DNA from: Methanosarcina sp.
GTDB taxonomy: Archaea; Halobacteriota; Methanosarcinia; Methanosarcinales; Methanosarcinaceae
Assembly: GCF_028693135.1 (NCBI RefSeq)
Contig: NZ_JAQUVZ010000002.1
Location: forward strand, 62,001-126,000
Direction: 5' to 3'
Length of the DNA: 64,000 nt
Below are positions 40,088-47,214 of this stretch, in pieces (position 1 is the first letter of the stretch; the number at the start of each line of letters is the position of its first letter). The notes under the pieces were generated by a model that worked only from the letters and a program-made list of their open reading frames with translations, was not told the DNA's origin and made no database searches. Made by a program: the position numbers and the translations under genes.

Positions 40088-41260
40088 ATGGTAAGAGGTA
40101 TGTACGTGGTAAACCCGGAAGAAAAAGTAATAACAATTATGAAAAAAACAGGTATTGACCTTGCTGCAACGCTTCCCTGTGACAGGATCAAGAACCTGCT
40201 CCCCCTCGTTTCGGAAAACTTTCCCGAGATCAAATTGACCAGGGAAGAAAGTGGGGTTGGGATCTGTGCCGGGGCCTACCTTGCAGGTGGAAAACCCATG
40301 ATGCTTATTCAGAGCACGGGGCTCGGGAATATGATCAATGTCCTTGAGTCCCTGAACGTAACATGCAAAATCCCCCTGCCTGTGCTGGCAAGCTGGCGCG
40401 GTGTTTACAAAGAAGCCATAGAAGCACAGGTCCCCCTGGGAGTCCATCTCCCTGCCATTCTGGAAGGAGCCGGGCTCGCGTATACAATAATTGACGAAGC
40501 TGAAAAGCTCCCTCTCCTTGAAAATGTGATCAACGACGCCTTTGAAAATTCCAGGCCCCACATAGCTCTGGTTTCTCCTAAAGTGTGGGAAGGTTCGGAC
40601 TGCTGTGCCTGGGAAACTCAGAAGGCCCCGGAGCTACCGAAGAAAGAAAAGATCTGCAAATTCCGCCTGACACAGAAGGTTCTCGAACCCCGGATGATCC
40701 GGAACGATGCAATCTCCGCCGTAGCAGCCGAACTGGATGAAGAAATCACCGTAACAAACCTCGGCGTCCCCTGCAAGGAACTCTACGCTGCCAGAGACCG
40801 GGACCTTAACTTTTACATGTTCGGGTCCATGGGGCTTGTCTCCTCCATTGGGCTTGGTCTTGCCCTGCACACGGACAGGCAGGTTGTGGTCTTCGACGGG
40901 GACGGAAGCCTCCTCATGAACCCTAACACCCTCCTGGAAGTCGGAAAGGAAGCCCCGAAAAACCTGGTTATCGTAGCCTTGGACAACGGCGCCTATGGCT
41001 CTACAGGCTCTCAGGAGACCTGTGCGCTGCGCTACATTGACCTGGAAATCCTGGCAAACTCCTGCGGGATCCAGAACACGTATAAGGTCAACACGGAAGA
41101 GGAACTCGTATACGTGTACAAGGATTCCCTTTATGCCAGGCAAACATCCTTTATCCATGTGATCCTGAAGCCAGGAAACACAAATGCCCCCAATATCCCC
41201 ATGAGTCCGGAAGAAACCACGAAACGCTTCAAAGAAGCGCTGGATACAAAAAAGCTTTAA
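40088..41260 (+). CDS. comDE: Sulfopyruvate decarboxylase, fused ComD-ComE
   Basis: The 390-residue TPP enzyme converts sulfopyruvate to sulfoacetaldehyde in coenzyme M synthesis. Residues 1-170 are the alpha (ComD) part with REESGVGICAGAYLAGGKP near 55-73. Residues 190-390 are the beta (ComE) part, with the TPP-Mg motif GDGSLLMNPNTLLEV near 278 and DNGAYGSTGSQ near 305. In many methanogens these are separate proteins; the fusion is normal in Methanosarcina. The start at ATG 40088 is followed by another Met five codons later. It lies after cysteate synthase and opposite the DUF39-ferredoxin gene. Confidence 0.93.
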   Translation: MVRGMYVVNPEEKVITIMKKTGIDLAATLPCDRIKNLLPLVSENFPEIKLTREESGVGICAGAYLAGGKPMMLIQSTGLGNMINVLESLNVTCKIPLPVLASWRGVYKEAIEAQVPLGVHLPAILEGAGLAYTIIDEAEKLPLLENVINDAFENSRPHIALVSPKVWEGSDCCAWETQKAPELPKKEKICKFRLTQKVLEPRMIRNDAISAVAAELDEEITVTNLGVPCKELYAARDRDLNFYMFGSMGLVSSIGLGLALHTDRQVVVFDGDGSLLMNPNTLLEVGKEAPKNLVIVALDNGAYGSTGSQETCALRYIDLEILANSCGIQNTYKVNTEEELVYVYKDSLYARQTSFIHVILKPGNTNAPNIPMSPEETTKRFKEALDTKKL

Positions 41261-41705
41261 AAATCGACCTGAAAAATACTTTTTTTGAGTATATTTTTCA
41301 TTCGGGTTTCTTTTTCATTTATTTTTTGACGAGCTGCCAGACAAGCTGGCGGGGGCATTTATATGTACCTGTGAATTGAAAATCGGTTTTCGAGGTTAAG
41401 GAAAATATCCTCTTGAACCGGAGGATATTTCTTAAATATATTTTGTCTCACTCAATTGCGGTGCCACTTTATATGTCGCTTTTATCCGACTGGCGGCTTG
41501 CCTCAGCCCCGCGTGGCACGGGGAGAAAGAACTAAAGATTTTCTCCTGGGATTCCGGAATAGAGCCTAAAATTAATCCGGACCCAACACTCTCCACTTTT
41601 AAGCATTAATTTTGATTTATTTCCTCAAGTTTTATTTTCTCAAGTTTTATTTCCTCAAGTTTTATTTTCTCCAGCTTATTTTCTCAAGTGTTATTTTATT
41701 AAGCC
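41261..41705. repeat. Convergent gap with hairpin and short tandem repeats
   Basis: At 41403-41430 AAATATCCTC, loop TTGAACCG, GAGGATATTT is a perfect 10 bp hairpin. From about 41613 to 41730 copies of a 16-17 bp unit like CTCAAGTTTTATTTTCT continue into the 3' end of the leftward DUF39 gene. A copy of a dispersed hairpin element starts at 41328. GCCCCGCGTGGCACGGGG near 41505 is also self-pairing. Confidence 0.6.
41328..41417. repeat. Dispersed hairpin element, copy 2
   Basis: GACGAGCTGCCAGACAAG then CTGGCG, after a T-rich tract and before ATTTATATGTACC. It shares order and much sequence with the element at 25346-25435. The stem is CTGCCAG / CTGGCGG with one wobble. Confidence 0.45.
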
Positions 41706-43022
41706 TTATTCTCTCCAGCTTATTTTCTCCACAGGTTCCTTGATCCTGAATTTTCCTGAAAGGACCTGCTCTTTAAGTTCTTCTGCGGCTTTTACCGCTC
41801 TTGCGCGGTCCGACTGGCGCAGGGTTACTTTGATATCTCTGAGGCAGCCTCCGGTTGTACAGCTGACAGTACCGAGGTTTGCGCTGAAAGCTTCTCCTTT
41901 GCACCTTGAGATACAGAGCCCGCAGTTAAAGCAAAGTTTGGGGTCGTGTACAGCTCCAGTTTCTCCCTTGCTAACTGCCCCCATAGGGCATGCTTCAGCC
42001 ACACAGCACACCTTGCAGTCAATACATTTTTCGGGATTGTATTTTACACTCAGGTCTGTGTTATCCCAGACATCCCCATAGGTTATCTCACAGAGAGGGA
42101 TTCTTCCTGCAAGATCTACAAGCTTGAGTGGGATCTGGCTGTCCGGCTTAAGGATATTTTCGAGCATTTCCCGGGAAAGGACAGGGATGGGAACTGCCCA
42201 TGTGTTGATGATTTCGGGGCCTGCTGAGGTTACAAACCCTCCCATATATTCAGGGGTCATGTCATGAAGATCTGCAAAACCCGTCAGGTTGGGATTATCC
42301 GGAGCACTGCGGGTACCCTGACCCGTAACGAACCCTTCGGCTCCATTTATAAGTACTCTTGTCCCGATTCCTATTGTCTCGAGTTTGGGGTCGTTTTGAA
42401 TTGGGTTTAACTCGCCGCAGCCGCAGAAGGTAATTTCCCTGAACTCGCCTTCAAAGGGCAGGGCATGGAAAATGGTTTTAATAGCCTCTTTTCCCGGGTT
42501 TACGAATGCCCGGTAGTTTTTAAAGGCATTCCTTGTCGCATGAAGCCGCGCAAAAGGTATCTTGGAAAGGCTGGTTTCTACTGAAAAAAGGTCTCCCCCA
42601 ATTGTGGTTACATCCACAGTAATACTCTTTCCTTCCACCATTTCCCTGAAAAGATGTCCGCCTCCGTAGCGGGGATCTGATTCACTGTGAGCTGTCCCAA
42701 GTACGATGAGGTCCAGGACTCCAAGCCTTTCGTTCGGGCAGGGACCAACGACTGCCGGCACTCCATTCAGCAGAACTTTAGAAGCTTTTACAAAAGAATC
42801 GGGATCGGAAACTTTGAAAGAGAGAATTGCATACGTTCCGCTCATAATGCCGCGGGTTGCGGTAGTTACGACATCAATATCTTCTAGCCTGATTTCTTCC
42901 CCTGCCCTGACCCTTGCACTAATTTCCTCAGCCGTAAGGACCACAGCTTCTCCAGAGTCGATTTTTGCCTGGATCTCGAGGATTGTCCTACATTTTTCTG
43001 TGTTGTCCGATGCTCCGTTCAT
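41706..43022 (-). CDS. DUF39 (HcyA-like) protein with two ferredoxin clusters
   Basis: The 438-residue protein has an N-terminal DUF39/COG1900 domain (residues about 10-340), with conserved cysteines in GPCPNERLG near 93 and CGCGELNP near 200. The C-terminal part has ferredoxin motifs CIDCKVCCVAEACP near 337 and CFNCGLCISRCKG near 370, then CTTGGC near 397. DUF39 proteins with ferredoxin partners act in homocysteine formation from aspartate semialdehyde, where sulfur is added to an aldehyde. The next step of coenzyme M synthesis needs the same chemistry on sulfoacetaldehyde, and this gene converges on cysteate synthase and comDE. A role there is inference. Confidence 0.82.
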   Translation of the reverse strand: MNGASDNTEKCRTILEIQAKIDSGEAVVLTAEEISARVRAGEEIRLEDIDVVTTATRGIMSGTYAILSFKVSDPDSFVKASKVLLNGVPAVVGPCPNERLGVLDLIVLGTAHSESDPRYGGGHLFREMVEGKSITVDVTTIGGDLFSVETSLSKIPFARLHATRNAFKNYRAFVNPGKEAIKTIFHALPFEGEFREITFCGCGELNPIQNDPKLETIGIGTRVLINGAEGFVTGQGTRSAPDNPNLTGFADLHDMTPEYMGGFVTSAGPEIINTWAVPIPVLSREMLENILKPDSQIPLKLVDLAGRIPLCEITYGDVWDNTDLSVKYNPEKCIDCKVCCVAEACPMGAVSKGETGAVHDPKLCFNCGLCISRCKGEAFSANLGTVSCTTGGCLRDIKVTLRQSDRARAVKAAEELKEQVLSGKFRIKEPVEKISWRE

Positions 43023-43115: not shown

Positions 43116-43416
43116 TCTCCAGAGCCAATATCACAAAAAAATATCATAAAAACTTATGGAAATTTCGTGGAAGCAATAAATTGAGGACGAAAAAGGAATA
43201 TTTTGAGATGCTCGGGATGGAAAACAGGAGCTCTGAGTTGGTAAATGGTAAATTGGAGTTAAGACTACAAATTTTTTACAAAATCTGTAAAATTTTTGTT
43301 TTTATGAGGCTGATTCGAATAGAAAATGCCCGAACCACCCAAAACTTATATAAATGATGGTGCGTACTATGGTGTTGCACTTCGGTACAAGAAACAGAAG
43401 CAATACGCATCTTAGA

Positions 43417-43490
43417 GGGCTCGTGGTCTAGCCGGTTATGACGTCGCCTTGACATGGCGGAGGTCCTGAGTTCGAATCTCAGCGGGCCCA
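43417..43490 (+). tRNA. tRNA-Val (GAC), copy 1
   Basis: Acceptor GGGCTCG pairs with CGGGCCC. The anticodon loop TTGACAT gives anticodon GAC. T-loop is TTCGAAT in the stem CTGAG/CTCAG. CCA is not encoded (ACTA follows). D-arm is GTC..GAC. First of three tRNAs in a repeat unit. Confidence 0.95.
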
Positions 43491-43608
43491 CTAAAAGATA
43501 ATCAAAAATTTCAGGAGATATTTCCTGAAAGGTAAAAAATAAAAAGCACTGAATCCCTTTTAAAGATATATTCTTAAAAAGAAATTCAGTAGTAAATAAG
43601 ATCTACCT

Positions 43609-43683
43609 GCCCAGGTAGCTCAGTGGGAGAGCGCTGCCCTGAAGAGGCAGTTGTCCCCGGTTCGAATCCGGGTCTGGGCACCA
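43609..43683 (+). tRNA. tRNA-Phe (GAA), copy 1
   Basis: Acceptor GCCCAGG pairs with TCTGGGC. Anticodon stem CTGCC/GGCAG with loop CTGAAGA gives GAA. The T-arm is CCCGG-TTCGAAT-CCGGG. CCA is encoded at 681-683, unlike in the neighbouring tRNAs. Confidence 0.95.
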
Positions 43684-43695
43684 TAAAAACAGAGA

Positions 43696-43767
43696 ACATC
43701 AGTAGTGTAGCGGTTATCACCGGGCGTTGCCAACGCTCGAACTCGGGTTCGAGTCCCGACTGGTGTA
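43696..43767 (+). tRNA. tRNA-Gly (GCC), copy 1
   Basis: Acceptor ACATCAG pairs with CTGGTGT (one G-T). Anticodon stem GGGCG/CGCTC (one wobble) with loop TTGCCAA gives GCC. The first base is A opposite T, where G-C is more usual for glycine tRNA. Confidence 0.9.
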
Positions 43768-43834
43768 TAACTATTTTAGAGTCCTTGTTTCAAGCACATT
43801 TGTTATAAGGAATAAAAACAACACGCATCTTAGA

Positions 43835-43908
43835 GGGCTCGTGGTCTAGCCGGTTATGACGTCGCCTTGACATGGCGGAGGTCCTGAGTTCGAATCTCAG
43901 CGGGCCCA
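43835..43908 (+). tRNA. tRNA-Val (GAC), copy 2
   Basis: It is identical to the tRNA at 43417-43490, 418 bp upstream, with the same anticodon GAC. Flanking bases on both sides are also identical. Confidence 0.95.
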
Positions 43909-44026
43909 CTAAAAGATAATCAAAAATTTCAGGAGATATTTCCTGAAAGGTAAAAAATAAAAAGCACTGAATCCCTTTTAAAGATATATTCTTAAAAAGA
44001 AATTCAGTAGTAAATAAGATCTACCT

Positions 44027-44101
44027 GCCCAGGTAGCTCAGTGGGAGAGCGCTGCCCTGAAGAGGCAGTTGTCCCCGGTTCGAATCCGGGTCTGGGCACC
44101 A
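44027..44101 (+). tRNA. tRNA-Phe (GAA), copy 2
   Basis: It is identical to the tRNA at 43609-43683, including the encoded CCA and the anticodon GAA. Confidence 0.95.
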
Positions 44102-44113
44102 TAAAAACAGAGA

Positions 44114-44185
44114 ACATCAGTAGTGTAGCGGTTATCACCGGGCGTTGCCAACGCTCGAACTCGGGTTCGAGTCCCGACTGGTGTA
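44114..44185 (+). tRNA. tRNA-Gly (GCC), copy 2
   Basis: It is identical to the tRNA at 43696-43767, with anticodon GCC and the same A-T first pair. Confidence 0.9.
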
Positions 44186-44673
44186 TATTTAATTAGTTTT
44201 TCAGCTCATTTTCGACTTATTATTTAACTTTTTTCTTGATTAATGTGCTCTGTATCAGGCTTATCTTTTCAAACCTTTAATTAGAATCAACTAGCTTACA
44301 TCATTTGAAAATATCAGCATAAATGTGAGCCCTTTTCATAAGATCAATAGTTCCTGATCAAATATTCATAAAATCTAGTTTAAAATCGAAGAATGGAGCT
44401 TATTAAGTAAACTTTTCAAACGACATCAGTTTCAATGTTAACACCTACGTTTCAAAAATAATAATAATGAACTGCTGCTCCAACGCCAGAAAATAAAAAA
44501 TGTTAACCAAAGGATCGTTAACCAAAAAGTTAATTAAAACAGAAAATCATTATACTTATTGGATATAAATCTCGAAAAGACAACAGAATTTGCTTGTAGA
44601 GATTATACCCAGTATGTTGCAAACCTGAAAAATCGTAATTTCAAACCTGAAAAATCGTAAGGAGATTTTGAAC
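44186..44673. other. AT-rich gap with a 23 bp direct repeat
   Basis: No gene is visible. Near 44620-44660 AAACCTGAAAAATCGTAA occurs twice, 23 bp apart, just before the ribosome site of the next small gene. Confidence 0.5.
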
Positions 44674-44802
44674 ATGACAGGAAAGTTCCAGAAAAGAAAT
44701 GCAGAACAAAAAGGCGTCAGAAAAGAATATGAACTGGAGCAGAAATTAATAAAGGGAATCGTAGACGAAATTCAGGTAAGCGGCGGTGGACCATTAGAGT
44801 GA
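44674..44802 (+). CDS. 42-residue protein coupled to the ubiquitin-like gene
   Basis: The ORF starts MTGKFQKRNAEQKGVRKEYE, continues LEQKLIKGIVDEIQVSGGGP and ends LE. GGAG lies nine bases before the ATG. The stop codon TGA overlaps the GTG start of the next gene (GTGA), so translation is probably coupled. The protein is highly charged, with a glycine-rich end SGGGPLE. I do not recognise a family. Its tight link to a Gly-Gly ubiquitin-like protein suggests a substrate, chaperone or processing partner, but that is inference. Confidence 0.65.
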   Translation: MTGKFQKRNAEQKGVRKEYELEQKLIKGIVDEIQVSGGGPLE

Positions 44803-45011
44803 GTAAAAAGGTGCACATAACAATTCAAGCCGGAAAGATTTCCGAGCAAACCGTAGAAGTAGCTGAGAATGCTACCTACGAAGACCTGCTTGATACACTG
44901 GAAATAAATCAGGAAACAGTACTTGTATTAAATGGAGGTAATGCTGTTCCTCTTGACGGAGCGATAAGTTTCGACAGACTAACAATCCTGAAAGTTGTTA
45001 CAGGTGGCTGA
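44799..45011 (+). CDS. Ubiquitin-like MoaD/ThiS-type protein (SAMP-like) with C-terminal Gly-Gly
   Basis: The 70-residue protein is a beta-grasp protein of the MoaD/ThiS/SAMP group. The pattern is VHITIQAGKISEQTVEVAE, then TYEDLLDTLEI, VLVLNGGNAVPLDGAI and the ending ILKVVTGG. A terminal Gly-Gly is needed for adenylation and sulfur transfer or protein conjugation. It starts with GTG overlapping the stop of the 42-residue gene and is followed one base later by a strong terminator. No E1-like, MoaE or ThiF gene lies nearby. Whether it acts as sulfur carrier or protein modifier cannot be told from sequence. Confidence 0.85.
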   Translation: MSKKVHITIQAGKISEQTVEVAENATYEDLLDTLEINQETVLVLNGGNAVPLDGAISFDRLTILKVVTGG

Positions 45012-45045
45012 CCTGCCCTTAAAGGGCAGGGTCCCTTCTTTATTA
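45012..45045 (+). terminator. Hairpin terminator after the ubiquitin-like gene
   Basis: CCTGCCCTT / AAGGGCAGG is a perfect 9 bp stem with a one-base centre. It is followed by GTCCCTTCTTTATT. It closes the two-gene operon. Confidence 0.75.
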
Positions 45046-45612
45046 CAATTTATTTAGTTTTGTCCCACTTTTTAGCTAATTTTTAAAGATCATTTTTCTA
45101 TTATATAGATCATTTTTCTATTATATCATTCATATCATTCTTTAATAACCAGGACATCTTATAAGGGCTTTTTCTCATTCAGACTTCTTATCCGGAGCTT
45201 TTCTCATTCAGACTTCTTATCCGGAGCTTTTCTTATTCAGACTTCTTACCCAGAGCTTTTCTCATTCAAATATTCCTGTTCATATACATTTTAAACGACC
45301 TGAAGGTTTGAACAAAAGACAGAGCAAAGAAGTAAAATGGTAAAAATCAGCAAAGAGGCTGAAGATGAGTCATGCACCAAATAACGAAGTTGCCTGAAAA
45401 CCCAGAAAAACGTTGAAGAAAAGCCAGAAAGGAGGGGAAACAGAAAGGAAAACCTGGAAAATGAAGGGAGAAAAACAGAAGAACCACAAAAAGAGGAAAA
45501 GAACCTGAAAGATCTAAAATTAGATGAATTAATCAGGAAGGATTTGATTTCCATAATGGTGATTTCCAGGAAGGACTGTCAGCCATTATGGAGCTAACCC
45601 TTTTTAGATCCT
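45046..45612. repeat. Gap with short repeats; possible decayed gene
   Basis: ATCATTTTTCTATTATAT is repeated at about 45088-45125. A 29-30 bp unit with CTCATTCAGACTTCTTATCC, GGAGCTTTT occurs about three times from 45170 to 45265. Between 45300 and 45594 there is a purine-rich Glu/Lys-coding stretch that is open over 70 codons but has no start. It may be remnant coding DNA. Confidence 0.45.
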
Positions 45613-46011
45613 TTACTTCGAAGGAGTAAGAGGCACCTTTTTGCTCATAACCTTCAGTTTTTTAATTGCTGAGATCGTTGCCTGAGATTCCTTATAGATT
45701 TTATCTTCATAATAGCTTATGATCTCATCAACAGGAGCCGCAAGAGAATAGATTTTTATCGGGCGCCCTTTACCAGGTTTCTTTTCCGAACGTACGTTGA
45801 CCCAAGACTGATTCTTCATTAGCCTCATTGCAAGGCTGACTTCAGGCTGCCGTAGTCCGGTACTGATTTCAATTTCGCGGGATGAAGCTTCGTCAACATT
45901 CATAAGATATGCCATAGTAGTGGCAACATTCCTTGACATCCCGAGGTTCCTTAACGTTTCAATAAAAATGTGGTCATTTTCGTCCAGCACTTTTACTTCA
46001 AAATCTTTCAT
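45613..46011 (-). CDS. Winged-helix transcriptional regulator
   Basis: The protein starts MKDFEVKVLDENDHIFIETL from ATG 46011, with GAAGGGG seven bases upstream; the upstream ATG at 46032 is less likely. It is 132 residues long. The middle part (about 38-90) is a winged helix of the ArsR/TrmB type: AYLMNVDEASSREIEISTGLR, then QPEVSLAMRLMKNQSWV and the wing EKKPGKGRPIKIYSL. The C-terminal helix may dimerise. This is a DNA-binding regulator known in methanogens; the target is unknown. No target genes are adjacent except long AT-rich gaps. Confidence 0.78.
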   Translation of the reverse strand: MKDFEVKVLDENDHIFIETLRNLGMSRNVATTMAYLMNVDEASSREIEISTGLRQPEVSLAMRLMKNQSWVNVRSEKKPGKGRPIKIYSLAAPVDEIISYYEDKIYKESQATISAIKKLKVMSKKVPLTPSK

Positions 46012-47214
46012 GATAACCCCTTCATATTCCAATTTTTATAAATTAAATCTGTCAGTAATTTTTATAATTAAATCTGTCAGCTAAAGAATATATCACGATG
46101 ATTATTATTCAGACCTTAAAAGGTAGCTTTCATAACCACCTGTTAAAACTGACACCAACTTCCAAAGTATTACACCACATGTATATTTATATGGTGCCCT
46201 ATCCCGTTTTAAAATATTAAATTCAATAAAAAGCGTTTTTTCACAATCTAGCGGATTGTTTACGTTTTAAACCCAACAATCGATTATCAAAAACAAACAT
46301 AATATATTTTAATAACCGATCACTAGAGAATCGTTTTGTGAACTTGATGGGAAGAGACGTATTGGTTCAGCAATTAAACCTGTATACGTATATAATTAGA
46401 AGGTTATTCATCTCCAACAATTAATAATGTACTCATACTATTTAAAGTTGTATATATTAAAAGGGAATTGAAAAACTTTCAATCACACCTGACATTAGCA
46501 GATCTAAAAAAATAATCAAACATAAGAGGCATAATAATCCCATTATCCAGATAAAAACCTGCGGGAATCACAACAAAAATATTATAATTGTACTGAACAA
46601 CAAAATTTTAGGGGGATTACCTGACAATAAAACGTCAAGGATAATTTAGAAATGTTTATATTCTCACTTTGGCGCAAATCAAACAATTATGCTGAAGAGC
46701 CACATAAAATTGCAGTATTCTTCCCGACTTCTGAGAGATCTATCCTGGAAGTGTTCAATCGGAGCAAAAATGAAAAAAAAATAGAAAAAAATAGAAAAAC
46801 TGGAGAAAAAAAAACTAAAAAATAGTAAAAGCTGAAAAGCTGAAATTTCATGTAGTGATTTTCTCCCAGGCTCACTTTTCAGAGCTGATTTCGTTCACGA
46901 AATTTGCCTTTATCAATTCTCTTTTAGCTAACCTTATTCCCCCAAACTGTTTCAAAACCATTTTGAATTCTACAATTGAGTAATACCCCATTTTAATTTT
47001 ATTTGTATTTTATCTAAAAAACAGTTCATGATAAAAAAACTCTACAAACGAATTCAAGCATTCAAAATGCTCCACAAAGGTTAACTTAAATAAATAAGTT
47101 GCAGAATACTATTCAATCGATATAAAAACTATGCCAAATTGGATAAAGATTTTTTGAGAAAGAGGTATTGAAGCCCTGCTACCTCTTGAATTGGCTAATG
47201 GGATGTGTTTTTTA
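46012..47214. other. 1.2 kb AT-rich gap
   Basis: I see no well-supported gene apart from a weak 57-codon ORF at 46652-46825. Several TATA-like segments occur (TATATTTATATGG near 46181, TATACGTATATAATTAG near 46383). The start region before the NSS transporter gene at 47215 has GGGATG as a weak ribosome site. Confidence 0.4.
46652..46825 (+). CDS. Doubtful 57-residue ORF
   Basis: The ORF starts MFIFSLWRKSNNYAEEPHKI, continues AVFFPTSERSILEVFNRSK and ends in a poly-A-coded Lys/Glu tail. AAGG lies 10 bases upstream. No family is recognised. The tail looks like low-complexity DNA, so the ORF may be chance or the start of a decayed gene. Confidence 0.25.
   Translation: MFIFSLWRKSNNYAEEPHKIAVFFPTSERSILEVFNRSKNEKKIEKNRKTGEKKTKK

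Follow-up and report, generated by a model that had tools for sequence, protein, structure and literature searches.

A conserved small gene paired with a SAMP2-type ubiquitin-like protein gene in Methanosarcina and related archaea

Archaeal SAMP2 serves as a model of how ubiquitin and Urm1 arose, and to our knowledge no dedicated small partner of SAMP2 is known. In the 64,000-nucleotide stretch of a Methanosarcina sp. contig analysed here (the window), a gene of only 42 codons runs into the start of a gene for a ubiquitin-like protein (Ubl) with a C-terminal Gly-Gly. An earlier note, made from the sequence alone, considered the small gene likely real, suggested that its coupling to the Ubl fixes their stoichiometry, and proposed that its product is a first substrate, an adaptor or a stabiliser of the Ubl. 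The locus raises two questions: whether the small gene is real, and whether its product serves the Ubl or a target of its own. The elements of the locus are listed below.

44502-44523, + strand: tandem GTTAACC-N8-GTTAACC, 5' of the promoter; conserved in 27 Methanosarcina and exact in the window genome
44560-44569, + strand: TATA-box-like TGGATATAAA, conserved in 27 Methanosarcina upstream regions; putative TATA box
44616-44657, + strand: 5' leader element GTTGCAAACCTGAAAAATCG, conserved in Methanosarcina, with a partial second copy at 44638-44657 in the window
44660-44664, + strand: AGGAG ribosome-binding site of the small gene, 9 bases 5' of its ATG
44674-44802, + strand: small gene, 42 codons and a TGA stop (ATG at 44674, stop at 44800-44802)
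44785-44790, + strand: GGTGGA in the tail of the small gene, within its Gly-Gly-Gly codons; probably serves the Ubl as ribosome site, so that these codons are doubly used
44799-45011, + strand: SAMP2-type Ubl with a GTG start and a C-terminal Gly-Gly (Pfam SAMP2 PF21965; structure profile also matches)
45012-45047, + strand: hairpin (45012-45030) followed by a T-rich stretch (45035-45047); putative transcript end
45613-46032, - strand: convergent gene for a regulator of the MreA family, which recurs 3' of the pair in Methanosarcinaceae and Methanotrichaceae

The small 42-residue gene is real and easily missed by annotation. It is preceded by a ribosome site, as had been noted, and GGAG or GAGGTG likewise precedes nearly all of its homologues in the relatives' loci; its stop shares four bases (GTGA) with the Ubl start, again as first described. 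Each of the 27 Methanosarcina loci examined keeps the reading frame intact, conservation extends far beyond the genus, and the overlapping Ubl start lies at -4 in 25 of the 27. In 26 of these genes (one with an extra codon was set aside), pN/pS amounts to 0.27 in the coding frame versus 1.0 and 1.2 in the other two frames, which is the selection pattern expected of a real gene and shows strong purifying selection on the small protein. This constraint is concentrated in codons 2-33 (pN/pS 0.20), with 0.79 for codons 34-42.

The leader element (CTATGTTGCAAACCTGAAAAATCG) is common to the 27 Methanosarcina loci upstream of the pair and, together with the GTTAACC sites, suggests a regulated promoter; a sigma-70-type promoter scan, a model ill suited to archaea, gave no excess. 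The strong terminator proposed earlier survives in part: in the window the hairpin 3' of the Ubl (-19.5 kcal/mol, z -2.6) is followed by the T-rich stretch, which is conserved across Methanosarcina, whereas the hairpin stem is not.

The second gene encodes a protein of 70 residues ending in VVTGG (stop at 45009-45011), and its identification as a SAMP/ThiS-like Gly-Gly protein was borne out by scores of 58.6 bits against Pfam SAMP2 (PF21965, cut-off 27) and 23.3 bits, just over the cut-off of 22.5, against ThiS (PF02597). By Pfam and by structure-profile match it belongs to the same family as SAMP2 of Haloferax volcanii (PDB 2l32, 2lji and 4hrs), the SAMP2 profile matching the solved structures 2l32 and 4hrs and also those of TtuB (5ztb and 5gha) and of related proteins. 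Unlike Haloferax SAMP2, it stays below the equivalog cut-off of 70 of the NCBIfam SAMP2 model NF041919 (54.5 bits), and it would best be described as SAMP2-like, not as a strict NCBIfam equivalog. The window genome encodes one SAMP2, two further MoaD/ThiS-type matches and one ThiF-family E1 (E 3e-81), which recalls the Haloferax volcanii pathway of UbaA E1, JAMM and NcsA; a JAMM protease sits in the extended operon of some relatives. The beta-grasp profile match also likens the protein to the TtuB, ThiS and MoaD sulfur carriers, as does a cysteine desulfurase neighbour in one family (f14), and we know of no upstream-encoded helical small partner in those systems.

A further difference from Haloferax SAMP2 is that whole lineages have Ubls ending in SG, AG or QG. 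Gly-Gly stands at or near the end in 124 of the 154 relatives' loci with a Ubl; the Ubls of Methanolobus end in SQG (L206, L207, L213, L221, L223, L224, L228 and L230) and those of Methanotrichaceae in SSG, or SAG in others (L217, L220, L226, L235, L238 and L251). These non-Gly-Gly Ubls still show pN/pS well below 1. Several ANME-2 and Methanoperedens Ubls (L199, L201, L202, L204, L210 and L257) carry residues past the Gly-Gly and would need trimming.

The small protein is rich in Lys and Glu, as reported at the outset, and its description as a protein without a known family also stood: the window protein has no match in Pfam or NCBIfam, 30 members of its family gave no coherent match in either, and nothing credible was found in the PDB (best E = 0.84). 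Residues 1-33 form a core conserved across the phylum and residues 34-42 a variable tail. In a 167-member alignment fitted to the family profile, which did not include the fused protein or three genes at contig ends, K13, G14 and K17 are invariant (167/167) and K24 is found in 162. AlphaFold2, run with 32 sequences, predicts a single helix over residues 3-36 (mean pLDDT 79) with a loose tail, and K13, K17 and K24 would fall on one side of it when reckoned at 100 degrees per residue. Over 154 pairs, the mean net charge is +2.6 for the core and -4.8 for the Ubl, which is negatively charged in 97% of them; the tail is acidic. The small gene is thus predicted to encode a basic alpha helix of about 33 residues and, after it, a variable acidic tail.

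Pup, the prokaryotic ubiquitin-like protein, has a C-terminal GGE or GGQ, and the small protein resembles it in being small and helical and, in some lineages, in having a GG close to its C-terminal end. Unlike in Pup, this GG is neither terminal nor conserved, being absent in ANME-2 and Methanoperedens members, and none of the 30 family members matched the Pup models in Pfam; a Pup-like tag was rejected on these grounds.

The Gly/Glu-rich tail is probably, in part, the ribosome site of the Ubl, so a Ubl-like end should not be inferred from its glycines. In the 154 genes with a Ubl, the tail pairs with the anti-SD sequence of 16S rRNA at a mean of -8.65 kcal/mol versus -5.31 for internal windows and beats these windows in 87% of genes, and synonymous divergence is halved in the tail among Methanosarcina. 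The signal holds on average only. Against the expectation that the ribosome site would be lost, Methanohalophilus genes without a Ubl still carry GGAAGGTGATG in the tail; those with a Ubl (L178 and L261) have no good ribosome site there. The average for genes without a Ubl (n = 14) took in one spurious locus, L153.

The whole set comprises 171 real genes (154 with a Ubl, one fused, three at contig ends and 13 without; L153 excluded). Some of these loci were retrieved via the Ubl, so the unbiased measure of adjacency comes from two sets. In the first, 75 named loci retrieved by the small protein alone, the Ubl lies directly 3' in 67; of the remaining eight, two end at a contig edge and six truly lack it, three from Methanohalophilus (L243, L254 and L255) and three of Methanotrichaceae type (L247, L260 and L268). 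The second consists of 40 loci from distant families, likewise retrieved by the small protein, which after removal of L153 leave 39 real loci with the Ubl adjacent in 33, fused in one and missing in five, one of these near a contig end. The fusion (L127, genome G063, family f11) is a single frame of 104 residues from its ATG, with the small protein at the N terminus of the Ubl, a short linker, and a Ubl whose Gly-Gly end is free. The earlier note was right in taking the two genes as translationally coupled, and these two sets show the small gene to be conserved 5' of the Ubl homologues.

The pair is kept while its flanks change between clades. In the window its flanks are tRNAs and CoM genes; elsewhere they are psmB and aCPSF1 (Methanococcoides), psmA (Methanosalsum) or Dph2 (ANME-2). 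An EngB-like GTPase flanks 12 loci of f9 (one Pfam-tested), a family that looks like Archaeoglobaceae, and three f9 loci (L136, L164 and L191; one Pfam-tested) have a JAMM protease after the Ubl. A SufS-type cysteine desulfurase follows the Ubl in all four loci (L130-L133; two Pfam-tested) of f14, which looks like Methanocella. The desulfurase and JAMM neighbours would fit a role of the Ubl as sulfur carrier or modifier. Two features of the surrounding window may be recorded here. Just 5' of the pair, at 43276-44196, similar open reading frames and a tRNA-like sequence recur twice, as if a tRNA cluster had been duplicated in tandem. Further upstream, at 40088-43022, the genes for sulfopyruvate decarboxylase and for methanogenesis marker 16, an HcyBio-family protein of sulfur incorporation, provide a context of sulfur metabolism.

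A small uncharacterised protein near an archaeal Ubl has been described for the Sulfolobales arCOG07188 neighbourhood, which differs in its Ubl family (arCOG00540) and in its other neighbours, as far as a comparison with the accessible part of the description allows (PMC2948915). The same accessible part of this 2010 survey of archaeal Ubl neighbourhoods by Makarova and Koonin does not name the small gene (PMC2948915), nor does the available portion of an M. mazei Ribo-seq paper contain anything on it (PMC11456600). Our literature search returned nothing naming the small gene, which may still be published elsewhere.

A profile of the small protein built from Methanosarcinales found matches in 117 of 345 genomes of the phylum, and a broader profile (A3) in 135 at E 0.01 or better, two of which (G168 and G203; E 0.004 and 0.008) are probable chance matches; this leaves about 133 of the 345 genomes with the protein, in a single copy each. 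None of the 77 genomes listed for the class lacks it (58 of f1, 3 of f2, 3 of f5 and 13 of f6). Among 59 relatives, a search at a permissive E detected the Ubl in 50 genomes and the small protein in 47; when the loci were read, each of the 50 principal ones had the small open reading frame just 5' of the Ubl, and the additional Ubl paralogues in G013 and G033 had none. In G013, a Methanosarcina, two such SAMP2 paralogues (L082 and L083) each lie 3' of a gene for a cysteine-rich protein, without the small gene. Save for weak unlinked matches, the small gene was not detected in families f8, f10, f16, f18, f22 and f23, and genomes of haloarchaeal type in the phylum set, as far as family names could be inferred, showed none either. 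Six f3 genomes of the same order (G037, G040, G044, G048, G052 and G056) have neither the small gene nor SAMP2. In f10, a conserved gene of about 320 codons precedes the Ubl in place of the small gene (L156, L158, L160, L161, L165, L172, L173 and L193). A match to the Ubl profile, of MoaD type in some cases, occurs in 301 genomes, versus the roughly 133 with the small gene. Viral contigs yielded no relative. Other phyla were covered by a pattern scan, whose 75 confirmed loci all belong to Methanosarcinales, Methanotrichales, ANME or genomes without a named order.

The small gene also persists where the Ubl has been lost in place, in Methanohalophilus, some Methanotrichaceae and one small-genome family. 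In Methanohalophilus the small gene is intact and the Ubl a remnant, in the same psmB-aCPSF1-HAD context as in Methanococcoides, where the Ubl is present; because the remnant and the ribosome site are still there, the loss may be recent, and retention in this genus is weak evidence by itself. Between these Methanohalophilus genes, the core differs by 1-3 synonymous and 0-2 nonsynonymous changes per pair, a divergence too low for a firm test of selection. Methanothrix fen_7 (L247) and M. harundinacea (L226) are alike in both flanks, and only L226 has the Ubl. Three f21 genomes have the small gene and no Ubl; the one f21 locus compared places it beside a divergent radical-SAM gene, the kind of gene that also adjoins the f11 fusion. 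Most genomes without the paired Ubl keep an E1 and a MoaD-type Ubl, and G082 shows neither. Since the small gene is kept where the Ubl is lost, it probably has a role of its own.

The rates of evolution point the same way. Across five clades, pN/pS is 0.13-0.21 for the core and 0.20-0.52 for the Ubl; in the four clades beyond Methanosarcina (9, 8, 5 and 9 sequences kept of 9, 12, 7 and 11, identical or missing ones being dropped), the values are 0.13-0.21 and 0.27-0.52, respectively, and in Methanosarcina the Ubl (0.20) about equals the core. The fixed stoichiometry put forward in the earlier note, or a dependence on the Ubl, is not supported, as the small gene outlives the Ubl in three lineages and evolves more slowly in four clades, and a protein that only stabilises the Ubl is disfavoured by the same retention.

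From the pairing, the selection, the retention and the fusion, we infer a target and an action for the small protein. Our preferred but tentative explanation is that this basic single-helix protein has its own target, probably RNA or the translation apparatus, and that SAMP2 acts beside it. The helix face bearing the invariant K13 and K17 and the near-invariant K24 would bind an acidic partner, most likely RNA or a translation-linked complex concerned with tRNA thiolation or situated near the ribosome; SAMP2, made together with the small protein, would act there as a sulfur carrier or regulator, and the small protein would retain its function in lineages that dispense with SAMP2. The closest functional setting is that of Haloferax, where, according to the accessible part of the source, the tRNA-thiolation enzyme NcsA is both modified by SAMP2 and found in its company, along with UbaA, PAN and aCPSF1 (PMC4048286). 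Several points count against this explanation: the acidic Ubl itself is an equally possible binding partner of the basic core, the fusion is a single one in one genome only, the f3 genomes lack both genes, and in other lineages of the phylum SAMP2-type Ubls occur without the small gene. A further version gives the leading part to the small protein: in Methanosarcinia, Archaeoglobi-like archaea and their relatives it would be an ancient helix that binds RNA or the ribosome, and SAMP2 an optional auxiliary repeatedly lost or deprived of its diglycine. This version seems to us possible but doubtful.

The main rival, which we hold to be possible yet on balance unlikely, is an adaptor or cap dedicated to SAMP2, whose helix would bind the acidic Ubl and either steer it to the E1, the desulfurase or a target, or shield it. 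Adjacency and fusion, the opposite charges of core and Ubl, and the desulfurase and JAMM genes within extended operons all speak for such an adaptor; it is harder to reconcile with a small gene that is kept and conserved where the Ubl is absent and with a core at least as conserved as its supposed client. If the small protein were instead an independent RNA- or ribosome-binding protein linked to SAMP2 by shared expression timing only, its retention without the Ubl and the tendency of its neighbours toward translation and proteostasis (Dph2, the EngB-like GTPase, aCPSF1, psmA and psmB) would be readily accommodated; this is rather improbable, as a linkage of mere convenience should break more often than that of a pair kept over several families despite flank changes, and even fused.

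Conjugation substrate and leader peptide are less likely than either an own target or an adaptor. That the Lys-rich small protein is a standing target of SAMP2, the first-substrate proposal, draws on the invariant lysines and the co-production of the two proteins; it is weakened to the point of being improbable by the finding that these lysines are equally invariant in 29 loci with a complete non-Gly-Gly Ubl (a thirtieth, L248, was left out because it is cut by a contig end) and in 13 without a Ubl. A sole role in controlling Ubl translation through the overlap, as a leader peptide or translational regulator, would suit the ribosome site within the tail and is largely refuted, and very improbable, because the amino acids of the core are conserved phylum-wide, also without a Ubl; a leader peptide of unconstrained sequence is ruled out by the same conserved residues and the pN/pS of the core.

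A coupled, conserved helical partner in genetically tractable methanogens provides a direct handle on the role of SAMP2 in these organisms, and the lineages in which the Ubl or its diglycine has been lost offer natural experiments on the function common to the pair. If the small protein does prove to be the principal actor, the pair would represent an archaeal Ubl system of a new kind, in which delivery falls to a dedicated peptide.
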